Both the position numbers and the translations under genes were made by a program. Below are positions 19,275-60,478 of a DNA stretch of 64,000 nt, piece after piece. The stretch's first letter is position 1, and each line of letters opens with the position of its first letter. The notes under the pieces were generated by a model. It did no database searches, was not told where the DNA came from, and saw only the letters and a program-made list of their open reading frames with translations. The stretch comes from Mesorhizobium australicum (GTDB lineage: Bacteria > Pseudomonadota > Alphaproteobacteria > Rhizobiales > Rhizobiaceae). The stretch covers positions 2,728,001-2,792,000 of the forward strand of contig NZ_FXBL01000004.1 in the NCBI RefSeq assembly GCF_900177325.1, read 5' to 3'.

Positions 19275-19808
19275 ATGTCTCGTATTGGCAAGAAGCCCGT
19301 CGCTCTCCCGCAGGGCGTGACCGCCTCGGTCAACGGCCAGACGGTGAGCGCGAAGGGACCGAAGGGCGAACTCAAGTTCGTCGTCAACGACGAGGTCCTG
19401 GTCAAGCTGCAGGACGGCGAGATCGCCGTCGAGCCGCGCGACCAGTCGAAGCTCGCACGGTCGAAGTGGGGCATGTCCCGCACGATGATCGTCAACATCC
19501 TCAACGGCGTGAAGGACGGTTTCGAGAAGCGTCTCGAGATCAACGGCGTTGGCTATCGCGCGGCCATGCAGGGCAAGAACCTGCAGCTGTCGCTCGGCTT
19601 CAGCCACGAAGTCGTCTACCAGACGCCGGAGGGCATCACGATCGCGACGCCGAAGCCGACCGAGATCGTCGTCAGCGGCATCGACAAGCAGCAGGTCGGC
19701 CAGGTAGCCGCCGAGATCCGCGAATATCGCGGCCCCGAGCCCTACAAAGGCAAGGGCGTAAAGTATGCGGGCGAGAAGATCGTCCGTAAGGAAGGCAAGA
19801 AGAAGTAA
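19275..19808 (+). CDS. rplF: 50S ribosomal protein L6
   Basis: L6 near the GTPase-associated centre, 177 residues, beginning [16 protein letters not shown] and ending with the conserved [22 protein letters not shown] heptamer palindrome starts on the base after its stop codon and widens the gap to rplR to 143 bases, unusually large for this operon. Confidence 0.98.
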
Positions 19809-19870
19809 GGCAGTAGGGAGTAGGCAGTAGTGAGTAGTGATCTACTGCCGGCTGCCTACTCACTACTCAC
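19809..19870 (+). repeat. Heptamer palindrome, AGTAGGC type, copy 1
   Basis: The left arm is four seven-base units of the GCAGTAG / GGAGTAG / TGAGTAG kind. The right arm is the reverse complement of the same units (CTACTGC, CTGCCTA, CTCACTA). The transcribed RNA would fold into a long imperfect hairpin. It begins directly after the rplF stop and ends 81 bases before rplR. The same pattern recurs after rpsM and sufD. Confidence 0.85.
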
Positions 19871-19951
19871 TTAGTCGCCACGGAAGGCGGTTGCGGGCTG
19901 AGTTAGACCGCACAGAGCCGCCGCCGTTTCACAAGGCAAGGGAAGAAGGCC

Positions 19952-24296: not shown

Positions 24297-24301
24297 TTTG
24301 A

Positions 24302-24359
24302 GGCAGTAGGCAGTAGGCAATAGGCAGTAGGATTTCACTACTGCCTACTCACTACTGCC
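24302..24359 (+). repeat. Heptamer palindrome, AGTAGGC type, copy 2
   Basis: Four direct units GGCAGTA, GGCAGTA, GGCAATA, GGCAGTA, then an inverted arm CTACTGCCTACTCACTACTG. It lies between rpsM and rpsK, two genes usually separated by few bases. A strong hairpin would form in the alpha-operon mRNA. Confidence 0.85.
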
Positions 24360-24416
24360 CACCGCCTCGGGTGTAGCCGCTGGCATTACGGCGGCGTAGA
24401 GATCGAAAGGCAAGAC

Positions 24417-24806
24417 ATGGCCAAGGAAGCCACACGCGTCCGCCGTCGCGAACGCAAGAACATCTCGACGGGCGTCGCGCACGTCAATTCGACGTTCAAC
24501 AACACGATGATCACCATCACCGACGCGCAGGGCAATGCGATTGCCTGGTCGTCGGCGGGCGCCCAGGGCTTCAAGGGTTCGCGCAAGTCGACCCCGTTTG
24601 CTGCGCAGATGGCTGCCGAGGACTGTGCCAAGAAGGCGCAGGAGCACGGCATGCGCATGCTGGAGGTCGAGGTCTGCGGTCCGGGTTCGGGCCGTGAGTC
24701 CGCGCTTCGCGCGCTGCAGGCGGCGGGCTTCACCATCACGTCGATCCGCGACGTGACGCCGATCCCGCACAATGGCTGCCGCCCGCGCAAGAAGCGCCGC
24801 GTCTGA
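24417..24806 (+). CDS. rpsK: 30S ribosomal protein S11
   Basis: S11 of the 30S platform, 129 residues. [19 protein letters not shown] and the C-terminal [18 protein letters not shown] are diagnostic. It lies between the repeat and rpoA. Confidence 0.99.
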
Positions 24807-24906
24807 CATTTCCCATTCCAACCTGCGGCGCCCATCGGGGCGCCGAAGGCATTTTCCAGATGCCCGTCACGATTGGATGGTGGCGGCGTAACGGAAGGAC
24901 AAACTG

Positions 24907-25917
24907 ATGATCCAGAAAAACTGGCAGGACCTGATCAAGCCGAACAAGGTCGAGTTCTCCTCGAAGGGCAAGACCATGACGTCGCTGGTCGCCGAACCGC
25001 TCGAGCGCGGCTTCGGCTTGACCCTCGGCAACGCGCTGCGTCGCGTTCTTCTCTCGTCGCTGCGCGGCGCGGCCGTGACCGCGGTGCAGATCGACGGCGT
25101 GCTGCATGAGTTCTCCTCGATCGCCGGCGTGCGCGAGGACGTGACCGACATCGTGCTGAACATCAAGGAAATCGCCATCAAGATGGAAGGCGATGGACCC
25201 AAGCGCATGGTCGTGCGCAAGCAGGGCCCGGGCTACGTCACCGCCGGCGACATCCAGACCGTGGGCGACGTCGAGATCCTGAACCCCGACCACGTGATCT
25301 GCACCCTCGACGAGGGCGCCGAGATCCGCATGGAGTTCACGGTCGACACCGGCAAGGGCTACGTGCCTGCCGAGCGCAACCGCGCCGACGACGCGCCGAT
25401 CGGCCTCATCCCGGTCGACTCGCTCTATTCGCCGGTCAAGAAGGTCTCCTACAAGGTCGAGAACACCCGCGAGGGCCAGGTTCTCGACTACGACAAGCTG
25501 ACGCTGTCGATCGAGACCGACGGCTCGATCACGGGCGAGGACGCCGTGGCGTTCGCCGCGCGCATCCTGCAGGACCAGCTGTCGCTGTTCGTCAACTTCG
25601 ACGAGCCGCAGAAGGAGCAGGCGACGGAAGCCGTCACCGAGCTCGCCTTCAACCCGGCGCTGCTGAAGAAGGTCGACGAGCTCGAACTGTCGGTCCGCTC
25701 GGCGAACTGCCTGAAGAACGACAACATCGTCTACATCGGCGACCTGATCCAGAAGACCGAGGCGGAGATGCTGCGCACCCCGAACTTCGGCCGCAAGTCG
25801 CTCAACGAGATCAAGGAAGTGCTCGCGGCGATGGGCCTGCATCTCGGCATGGAAGTGCCGGACTGGCCGCCGGAGAACATCGAAGACCTCGCCAAGCGCT
25901 ACGAAGACCAGTACTGA
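24907..25917 (+). CDS. rpoA: RNA polymerase alpha subunit
   Basis: Alpha subunit, 336 residues. The N-terminal dimerisation domain contains [20 protein letters not shown] near residues 33-52. The C-terminal domain ends with [20 protein letters not shown], the DNA- and activator-contacting helices. The stop is followed within five bases by a heptamer palindrome of the second type. Confidence 0.99.
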
Positions 25918-25921
25918 ATTG

Positions 25922-25998
25922 GGTGAATGGTGAATGGTAAAATGGTGAATGGAACTCAGCCTCTGGATCGACCATTCACCATTGACCATTCACCATCC
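25922..25998 (+). repeat. Heptamer palindrome, GGTGAAT type, copy 1
   Basis: Left arm GGTGAATGGTGAATGG, a degenerate unit and TGGTGAATGG; right arm CCATTCACCATTGACCATTC and more, its reverse complement. The period is seven bases, as in the AGTAGGC type. It fills the rpoA-rplQ spacer. Confidence 0.85.
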
Positions 25999-26046
25999 AC
26001 CTCCTGAAACCACCGGGCACCCGCCCAGAACCTAGGAGATAAGCCA

Positions 26047-30729: not shown

Positions 30730-30770
30730 AAGAACAGGCTGGAAGGACTTTCTCCTTCCAGCCTGTTCTT
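30730..30770 (-). terminator. 18-base perfect hairpin after the hydrolase gene
   Basis: Arms AAGAACAGGCTGGAAGGA (30730-30747) and its exact reverse complement (30753-30770), loop of five bases. It begins 21 bases beyond the stop of the minus-strand hydrolase. It is probably the terminator, though the U-tract after the stem is poor. Confidence 0.65.
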
Positions 30771-37119: not shown

Positions 37120-37124
37120 ACGAA

Positions 37125-37211
37125 GTGAGTAGGGAGTAGGGAGTAGCGAGTAGTGTCTGGTGCGGCTGTGGCAATCTATCGACCGTTCCCTAATCACTAC
37201 TCACTACTCGC
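37125..37211 (+). repeat. Heptamer palindrome, AGTAGGC type, copy 3
   Basis: Left arm GTGAGTA, GGGAGTA, GGGAGTA, GCGAGTA; right arm AATCACTACTCACTACTCGC after about 40 unrelated bases. It ends nine bases before the sufS start, so it could influence translation initiation of sufS. Confidence 0.8.
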
Positions 37212-37220
37212 TGAAAGCTG

Positions 37221-51969: not shown

Positions 51970-52048
51970 GGTGAATAGCGAATGGTGAATGGTCGACTGC
52001 CGTGAGGCCTCGACCGCGCCATTCACGATTTTCCATTCACCATTCACC
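51970..52048 (+). repeat. Heptamer palindrome, GGTGAAT type, copy 2
   Basis: Left units GGTGAAT, AGCGAAT, GGTGAAT; right arm CCATTCAC, CATTCAC, CATTCACC. It starts six bases after the coxS stop and ends 18 bases before coxL. Confidence 0.85.
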
Positions 52049-54425: not shown

Positions 54426-54528
54426 GGTGAATGGTGAATGGCAAAATGGTGAATGGTCCGGCCGCCGACTGATCCGGCCGACTTCTTCCCCAGAGATGTC
54501 CATTCACCGTTTACCATTCACCATTCAC
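54426..54528 (+). repeat. Heptamer palindrome, GGTGAAT type, copy 3
   Basis: Left units GGTGAAT, GGTGAAT, GGCAAAA, TGGTGAAT; right arm CCATTCACCGTTTACCATTC and on. A further CCGGCCG hairpin lies in the loop. It starts four bases after the coxL stop and ends 20 bases before coxM. Confidence 0.85.
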
Positions 54529-54548
54529 TCCTTGTCGGAGACACGACC

Positions 54549-60265: not shown

Positions 60266-60270
60266 GCGCC

Positions 60271-60478
60271 TATCTCCCCCCTTGAGGGGGAGAAAGCGAA
60301 ATCAGCATCTTAGCGAAGCTAAGTGCTAGATTTCGCAAGAGAGGGGGAGTCTGGGGCCGCAATCCTTCCAGCGACGCGCCCCCTCTCTTGGATTTTCTAC
60401 GACTTAGCCTCCGCACCCCTGCGGGCTGCTCCGGCTAAGACCGTGAAAATCCATTCTCCCCCTCCAGGGGGGAGATAG
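60271..60478. repeat. MITE-like element, copy 2
   Basis: 208 bases, beginning TATCTCCCCCCTTGAGGGGG and ending CTCCCCCTCCAGGGGGGAGA plus TAG, so the ends are inverted repeats. The first hairpin (CTTAGCGAAGCTAAG core) is shared with copy 1; the second half is different and longer. It starts six bases after the DUF559 stop. Confidence 0.8.

Follow-up and report, generated by a model that had tools for sequence, protein, structure and literature searches.

Heptamer palindromes behind stop codons in Mesorhizobium australicum as likely ORF-less copies of an S23p/IVP mobile element

Six palindromes made of inverted heptamer arrays were found behind stop codons in a stretch of 64,000 nt of Mesorhizobium australicum (NZ_FXBL01000004.1, positions 2,728,001 to 2,792,000, forward strand; hereafter the window). 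They are likely to be copies, lacking an open reading frame (ORF) and resembling miniature inverted-repeat transposable elements (MITEs), of an S23p/IVP (PF05635) mobile element that inserts behind stop codons and folds into a hairpin as RNA, and they are probably not regulatory hairpins of the host. A mobile element is favored because the insertions are polymorphic among close relatives, because a PF05635-bearing copy of each repeat dialect is present in the same genome, and because the same anatomy surrounds such genes in many phyla.

Palindromes of the window and their gene-bearing relatives

Each element of the window consisted of about three to four imperfect 7-mers, a loop of 4 to 42 nt and the complementary array, and was spelled in one of two dialects, GGTGAAT or GGCAGTA/GGGAGTA (Table 1). 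An earlier note, made from the letters of this DNA alone, had described six palindromes that start directly after a stop codon, end shortly before the next gene on the same strand and would each form a long RNA hairpin, and all of this was borne out. The gap between stop codon and 5' arm was 0-6 nt in all six cases, the 3' arm ended 8-78 nt before the next same-strand start, and the predicted RNA folds reached -36.8 to -58.5 kcal/mol (z -2.9 to -7.8), with 0 of 200 shuffles as stable for each element. Heptamers of the GGTGAAT type (up to 3 mismatches) occurred 17 times in the window versus 0.29 expected and those of the GNAGTAG type 13 times versus 0.36 expected, counts that none of 100 shuffles reached. 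All six palindromes lay in spacers between protein genes and none inside a 23S rRNA helix. No ORF was present between the arms of any of them, and in an Rfam search at gathering scores a tRNA was the sole match in the window, leaving the palindromes without a known RNA family.

Table 1. Inverted heptamer arrays of the window.
Element	Gene pair	Position	Arms	Strand	Dialect	Fold z	Remark
Palindrome 1	rplF (L6)-rplR (L18)	19806..19873	19806-19837, 19842-19873	+	GGCAGTA/GGGAGTA	-4.9	starts at TAA
Palindrome 2	rpsM-rpsK	24300..24368	24300-24330, 24338-24368	+	GGCAGTA	-7.8	
Palindrome 3	rpoA-rplQ	25922..26001	25922-25952, 25971-26001	+	GGTGAAT	-7.4	
Palindrome 4	sufD-sufS	37124..37212	~37124-37153, 37190-37212	+	GGGAGTA	-2.9	
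Palindrome 5	coxS-like/coxL-like	51970..52048	51970-51992, 52019-52048	+	GGTGAAT	-4.6	
Palindrome 6	coxL-like/coxM-like	54426..54529	54426-54457, 54500-54529	+	GGTGAAT	-7.5	

Gene-bearing relatives of these palindromes were detected elsewhere in the genome. A whole-genome pattern search gave at least about 20 elements, fifteen of the GGCAGTA and five of the GGTGAAT dialect, six of them in the window, with 0 hits in reversed-pattern controls and with a weaker remnant in L012 left out of the count. In two of the roughly 20 elements the loop was about 390 nt long rather than tens of nucleotides and encoded a PF05635 (23S_rRNA_IVP) protein (E 3.3e-36 and 8.8e-39), which also matched TIGR02436, 'four helix bundle protein'. 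One of these full copies was of the GGTGAAT and one of the GGCAGTA dialect, so that both dialects have a full copy and the window holds ORF-less copies only. The terminal inverted repeats of the window palindromes were shared with these fuller elements in both dialects. In the whole-genome search the two genes were the only PF05635 genes of the genome (2/2), and PF05635 was the only gene found between the arms of both copies; no transposase was found there. The statement of the earlier note that no named family fits was nearly right, the link to S23p/IVP being invisible from a window that holds ORF-less copies only.

The two IVPs (L032 and L033) were 46% identical to each other, and both loci passed the strict array test described below. 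Matches to Avd-family profiles were weak and below the curated cut-offs (E 7.3e-6; bAvd E 6.7e-4). PADLOC gave no match for either protein, and a tblastn search of IVP against 50,697 phage records gave none. A solved structure of an IVP homologue exists (2gsc).

Regarding placement, the earlier note had located the elements inside operons, and Pfam matches confirmed the flanking genes named for the window (L6/L18, S13/S11, RpoA/L17 and SufBD/class-V aminotransferase, and for the cox-like genes a Fer2 subunit, a molybdopterin-binding large subunit and a FAD subunit). Across the genome, the starts of 17 of 20 elements ranged from 14 nt inside a stop to 7 nt past it, two started 17 and 23 nt after a stop, behind further degenerate heptamers, and one was a half-element 167 nt from a stop; these distances rest on our own gene caller. 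Fourteen elements lay in co-directional, six in convergent and none in divergent spacers, and four of the six in convergent spacers touched a stop codon at both ends. As background, 50 of 326 spacers of the sampled genome were divergent and 5.5% of its intergenic bases lay 0-7 nt after a stop. The note had regarded equal presence at promoters and convergent ends as evidence against its rule, which applies in part, with convergent ends occupied and divergent spacers empty. Since six of 20 elements were convergent, 'inside operons' is too narrow and the rule is better worded as 'behind stop codons'.

A detector of period-7 inverted arrays found six in the window and three in 20 evenly spaced 20-kb pieces of the genome, all three in one piece; it also returned one extra GC-rich match inside a gene and one artefact, and shuffled sequence gave two. 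Eleven other lag periods gave 1-7 inverted arrays each, 1-5 of them outside called genes, apparently with one artefact in each count. Array copy number differed widely among the genome elements. Some elements were clustered, three within 7.4 kb (L009 9717-17050) and two within 1.6 kb (L022 5625-7149), the latter two agreeing in the loop end and the 3' arm, which looks like duplication of a single deleted copy.

Insertion polymorphism in close relatives

The same sites were compared in five relatives of the genus (G491, G195, G129, G030 and G490) and, for parts, in a sixth (G492). At coxL-coxM none of the six relatives had an insert, stop and start being 10-14 nt apart versus 127 nt in our genome; a duplication of 2-4 nt is possible at this site by eye, with no constant length across sites. 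Likewise, sufD and sufS were 0-1 nt apart in G491, G195 and G129, the three relatives in which the site was found (it was not found in G030 and G490), versus 101 nt in our genome. The spacer nuoC-nuoD, identified by Pfam in our genome, measured at most 10 nt in G491 and G030 (two of six genomes with the site, our own included; it was not found in G129), contained a full IVP element in our genome and in G195, and in G490 and G492 showed, by eye, IVP ends together with other arrays. The insertion in our genome, a GGTGAAT copy, had replaced the last two nuoC codons; the array provides the stop, and both the nuoC stop and the IVP start lie within it.

Further sites differed both in occupancy and in spelling. 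No element was present at rplF-rplR in G491 and G030, and three dialects occurred there among our genome, G195, G129 and G490, the spelling in the three relatives differing from ours. Elements directly behind the stop were present at rplR-rpsE in G195 and G490 only. The coxS-like/coxL-like site was occupied by the GGTGAAT dialect in G491 and G195 and by GTCGGTC in G490, and had no element in G129 and G030.

At rpsM-rpsK and rpoA-rplQ a palindrome was found at the same place in all five relatives, in other spellings at rpsM-rpsK and with the units GGCGAAT (four) or GTCGGTC-like (one) at rpoA-rplQ, where the spacer of G490 spans 97 nt counted from the stop codon on. The comparison of the same operons in related strains, suggested by the earlier note, thus turned up palindromes at these two pairs and none at coxL-coxM or, where found, at sufD-sufS. 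Both arms had changed together at rpsM-rpsK and rpoA-rplQ with flanks largely conserved, and the palindromes at rpoA-rplQ differed although RpoA was 100% identical to ours over the aligned part in G491 and 98% in G195. This pattern points to repeated replacement or rewriting at one site. In G491, a 1-nt difference at the end of rpoA (L202 / L228), either real or a sequencing error, lets the frame run into the GGCGAAT palindrome (373 versus 341 aa); the GGCGAAT unit contains no stop on that strand.

Inverted arrays around PF05635 genes in many phyla

PF05635 was present in 62 of 199 genomes of the family and in 52 of 299 genomes of a phylum sample, 48 of them above the cut-off of the Pfam family. 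Altogether 169 loci with PF05635 proteins or their tblastn relatives were examined: 62 (L032-L093, including five cyanobacterial plasmid loci), 19 (L094-L112) and 88 (L113-L200, comprising 80 named loci and eight plasmid loci), where species may recur between the named and the other sets. The named loci were the 80 best among the listed matches to the pattern S[IV][PA][SA]NIAEG, and the plasmid loci were chosen by hand from 31 matching records in each of two scans (5 of 31 and 8 of 31). To pass the strict test, a locus needed 16 or more matches in a 21-nt stem together with a periodic match at 22 or more of 28 positions, thresholds that were set after the first arrays had been seen; the relaxed thresholds were 16 and 19.

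The strict test was passed by 116 of the 169 loci (46/62, 10/19 and 60/88), with a period of 7 in 96, 8 in 19 and 9 in one. Among controls, 0 of 400 random intervals of our genome and 2 of 138 shifted intervals of the named and plasmid loci passed, and both of the latter look like true arrays by eye. With the relaxed test 144 of 169 loci passed, versus 4 of 138 controls. Nine of the 11 cyanobacterial loci were strict passers, as were records titled Bacteroidota, Chloroploca, Planctomycetota, Acidobacteria, Clostridia and Methanophagales archaeon. In Xanthomonas vasicola (L113, relaxed test only) the IVP gene is accompanied by CGGGAATCGGGAGTGG, and a Rhodanobacter locus (L115, strict) contains CGGGAATCGGGAATGG; both are arrays of the GGGAATC heptamer. 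Units such as GTCGGTC or GCGAATA also occur. None of the arm segments inspected at the 11 cyanobacterial loci showed the Nostoc unit GGGGA(C/T)T; other units were present there.

The placement behind stop codons recurred at these loci. For this and for the comparison of units with proteins, only the strict loci of period 7 or 8 were used (n=109). In 99 of 109 elements, versus 78 of 1048 shifted positions, an ORF of 80 or more codons ran into the element and its stop lay within -21 to +20 nt of an arm edge; the negative distances, i.e. stops inside arrays, are weaker evidence, because a frame entering a stop-bearing array must end there. The stop stood at the edge upstream of the IVP gene and co-oriented with it in 89 elements, at the far side in 51 and at both in 41, and thus the IVP ORF mostly follows a co-oriented host frame. 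In the family, the nuoC-nuoD spacer, recognised in the other genomes by a NuoD sequence motif, held 22 of 31 loci, and the IVP gene was co-oriented with the operon in all 22. The upstream arm contained more G than C in 98 of 109 elements and its unit included a stop codon in 77 of 109, versus 54% of shuffled units; because neither 7 nor 8 is divisible by three, such a unit gives stops in every frame. An in-frame IVP start near the end of the array was present in 51 of 109.

Repeat unit and protein were related. Unit similarity tracked protein similarity over the 109 loci (Mantel r 0.21, maximum 0.163 in 1000 permutations). Protein pairs of at least 75% identity (n=18) shared 95% of the unit and always the period, while pairs below 55% identity had a unit similarity of about 0.51. 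The GGTGAAT protein of our genome was 76% identical to the GGTGAAT protein of G195, and the unit of its three nearest family members was GGTGAAT in every case. At the nuoC-nuoD site the two arms of a locus matched each other at 18.95 of 21 positions on average, versus 15.74 with the arms of other loci. GGTGAAT arrays were found in 25 of 199 family genomes, and PF05635 was present in 19 of these 25 versus 43 of the 174 others (p 1e-6, uncorrected for kinship). Family loci with 8-nt units were L036, L038, L043, L047, L058 and L111, and as five of them are mutual near neighbours by protein identity, protein and period may be inherited together.

After ten of the 169 loci had been dropped, 159 sequences remained in the protein alignment. 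Q34, R37, S68 and E71 were conserved in 99-100% of them, none of these residues being required by the fetching motif, and such near-invariant polar residues suggest, on the basis of the alignment, binding or catalysis. Conservation of NIAEG among the 80 named loci is by construction, because these were fetched with that pattern and the script required such a motif.

Some loci are of note in their own right. Three IVP genes on cyanobacterial plasmids (L065, L197 and L198), surrounded by inverted heptamer or octamer arrays, were located in CRISPR operons, two between cas6 and cas4 and one between cas10 and a cmr3-family gene, and give the impression of hitch-hikers there. Among other Pseudomonadota, the IVP gene recurred (L094, L096 and L099; L094 and L096 fail the strict test) between two genes that appear by sequence, as inspected in L096, to be CysD-like and CysN-like; some 15 copies of GCGAGTA follow the stop in L096. 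Genome G412 contained two loci (L103 and L104) with identical 21-nt arm segments and equal match scores 236 kb apart, as recent copies would be.

Proposed mechanism and alternative readings

The full element, as seen in this genome and across phyla, comprises an inverted array of 7-nt (in some lineages 8-nt) repeats, a single ORF for the PF05635/S23p four-helix-bundle protein and the complementary array. We propose that it would be transcribed with the host operon, and the arms would pair to a long double-stranded stem. This stem could be cut by RNase III, as has been reported for the intervening sequences (IVSs) of 23S rRNA (PMC4990558), which would leave both flanking cistrons intact and make the insertion nearly harmless. 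The G-rich arm, often with stops in all frames, would end upstream translation cleanly wherever an insertion hits the last codons, the IVP would be expressed through reading on from the host gene, and it may act on the arrays in cis and in trans, thereby mobilising its own and the ORF-less copies.

Several observations weigh against this reading of the palindromes. Mobilisation by the IVP is putative, and so is direct descent of any window copy from either full copy. To our knowledge no catalytic activity has been described for PF05635. The strict test was failed by 53 of 169 loci, some without a period-7/8 signal in it (e.g. L105, L106, L124 and L134), and the sample was non-random, being made of best matches per genome, the 80 best of the listed pattern matches and chosen plasmid loci. 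GGTGAAT arrays were present in six genomes without a PF05635 match, and the locus's own 3' arm was the best or tied best partner in just 11 of 22 nuoC-nuoD loci. The trend between unit and protein may reflect simple co-inheritance and is support rather than proof, because co-inheritance without recognition would yield the same trend. Similarly, stop adjacency in spacers of 0-12 nt may reflect survival of insertions instead of targeting, and the rplF-rplR palindrome of G490 starts about 33 nt after the stop. By eye, a repeat of 8-9 nt (GCGAAGC) flanks the nuoC insertion of our genome, and no such target-site duplication was seen elsewhere.

Four other explanations were weighed. Host repeats that evolve by slippage and gene conversion, with the IVP gene as a passenger inserting into existing palindromes, would account for the highly variable array copy number and for rpsM-rpsK and rpoA-rplQ, where each of the six genomes compared carries a palindrome at a shared site, in dialects that vary, as in-place conversion would give. 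We consider this unlikely, as spacers of 0-12 nt acquired entire palindromes, across loci the unit tracks the protein, and passengers would not explain the 7- or 8-nt arrays at IVP genes of other phyla. That the palindromes serve the host as regulatory or protective hairpins, shielding the upstream message or tuning the downstream gene, as the earlier note had suggested, fits stable hairpins behind stops in ribosomal and other operons, and 3' UTR (untranslated region) hairpins can impede exonucleases, as stated for repetitive extragenic palindromic (REP) elements (PMC5082802). This is improbable in view of their lack from the same spacer in near relatives (coxL-coxM in 6/6, rplF-rplR in 2/5), the different spelling of shared sites and the PF05635 gene in the full copies. 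The elements do not resemble intrinsic terminators, as by eye no T-run follows any of the six 3' arms.

Two explanations taken from known repeat families found still less backing. The G-quadruplex-forming regulatory repeats proposed for GGGNATC of Xanthomonas and Nostoc have the same geometry, with a G-rich arm adjoining the stop on the coding strand (PMC4692102), but by eye no arm of the window contains four GGG tracts (37124 has two, the remaining elements one or none), each arm has a complementary C-rich arm, and the units GTCGGTC and GCGAATA are without GGG. The IVP gene of Xanthomonas flanked by the same GGGAATC heptamer points to an element instead, and we regard a quadruplex origin as very unlikely. 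REP or REPIN elements moved in trans by a Y1 transposase (RAYT) are likewise short intergenic palindromes behind genes, and the GGCAGTA array contains GTAG, a tag of one REP superfamily (PMC3733652). However, the GGTGAAT unit contains neither GTAG nor CGTC, the arms are tandem arrays, and a PF01797 search that was positive in 5 of 14 control genomes gave no match in our genome, G491, G129 and G030 and one in G195. With no Y1 transposase match in our genome, this origin is disfavored and appears extremely unlikely.

A mobile S23p/IVP element, in comparison, connects the palindromes with several described systems. Full copies share with the 23S rRNA IVSs the PF05635 protein family and terminal inverted repeats forming a long stem; they differ in standing behind stops in protein-gene spacers instead of in 23S rRNA helices, and the six of the window have no ORF. 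In the Coxiella burnetii IVS, tandem heptamers (GACAGAT) of strain-variable copy number lie just upstream of the S23p ORF, function and origin of these sequences were called unclear, and earlier work cited there suspected that the sequence was mobile and that its ORF served this mobility (PMC4990558). Inverted arrays on both sides, the period in other lineages and the trend between unit and protein are not among the Coxiella IVS features in the accessible text of that paper. With MITEs the palindromes have in common that they are short and non-autonomous, possess terminal inverted repeats and a fuller relative in the genome, and show insertion polymorphism (coxL-coxM, sufD-sufS and rplF-rplR); unlike with MITEs, no transposase was found in the fuller copies, no constant target-site duplication was seen by eye and the ends differ between lineages. 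We class the palindromes of the window as relatives of IVP elements without an ORF and not as 23S rRNA IVSs, since the place is wrong and an ORF is lacking, nor as REPs, nor as classical MITEs, since there is no transposase.

Among orphan heptamers, GGGNATC repeats have a 7-nt unit, prefer four units and are under-represented in divergent spacers, and the G-rich repeats occur on the coding strand close to the stop or on the opposite strand ahead of an ORF; no role was known for the Xanthomonas and Nostoc heptamers, and the authors saw generally no association with mobile elements (PMC4692102, as far as accessible). In contrast to the G-quadruplex framing in that text, GGGAATC is linked here to IVP genes (L113 relaxed, L115 strict). 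The TAACTGA repeats of Beggiatoaceae, cyanobacteria and Bacteroidetes, which mostly lie a short way before a start codon and include one inverted case, resemble the present ones in a 7-nt unit with stops in all frames, in lying in part at gene ends and in ribosomal protein operons and in their patchy occurrence across phyla (PMC4679880). They are described there as direct repeats, whereas the present ones are inverted arrays. A resemblance of IVP to Avd of diversity-generating retroelements has been noted (PMC10053308); unlike in Avd systems, no reverse transcriptase, template or variable repeat was present between the arms, and the rest of the genome was not searched for one.

As a tentative extension, which we hold to be possible at best, PF05635 might be the sequence-reading factor of transposase-free mobile elements across phyla. 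It would bind arrays by their 7-/8-nt period and its own unit and write new arrays behind the stops of translated, co-oriented mRNAs with a host enzyme as helper or, in the manner of its relative Avd in retrohoming, with a reverse transcriptase acting in trans, overwriting old palindromes in the dialect of the active protein. Such overwriting would explain the differently spelled hairpins at rpsM-rpsK and rpoA-rplQ in close relatives.

If the palindromes are indeed copies of an S23p/IVP element, a single kind of element would explain why IVP genes are dispersed over operons, the CRISPR operons of cyanobacterial plasmids among them, and would also be the source of some orphan heptamer repeats, if not more, and of the hairpins in ribosomal, respiratory and Fe-S operons. 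Two puzzles, the S23p/IVP intervening sequences and the heptamer repeats of Xanthomonas and Nostoc, would be joined, and the element would allow tests of how DNA moves when no transposase is encoded and of how repeats change fast and in concert. Caution would then be due in reading IVP genes between cas genes as functional partners. Among the papers listed by a literature search mostly outside subscription journals and bioRxiv, none was seen to link PF05635 genes with intergenic heptamer palindromes, and any priority of the link is therefore provisional.

Two further repeats were noticed in the window. A perfect 18-bp inverted repeat with a 5-nt loop lies at 30730-30770 between two minus-strand genes and is perhaps a terminator. 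A piece of about 205 nt at 60270-60478 has an imperfect inverted repeat of some 25 nt at either end (ctatctcccccc.../...ggggggagatag) and imperfect palindromes nested within; it looks like an unrelated MITE-like repeat.

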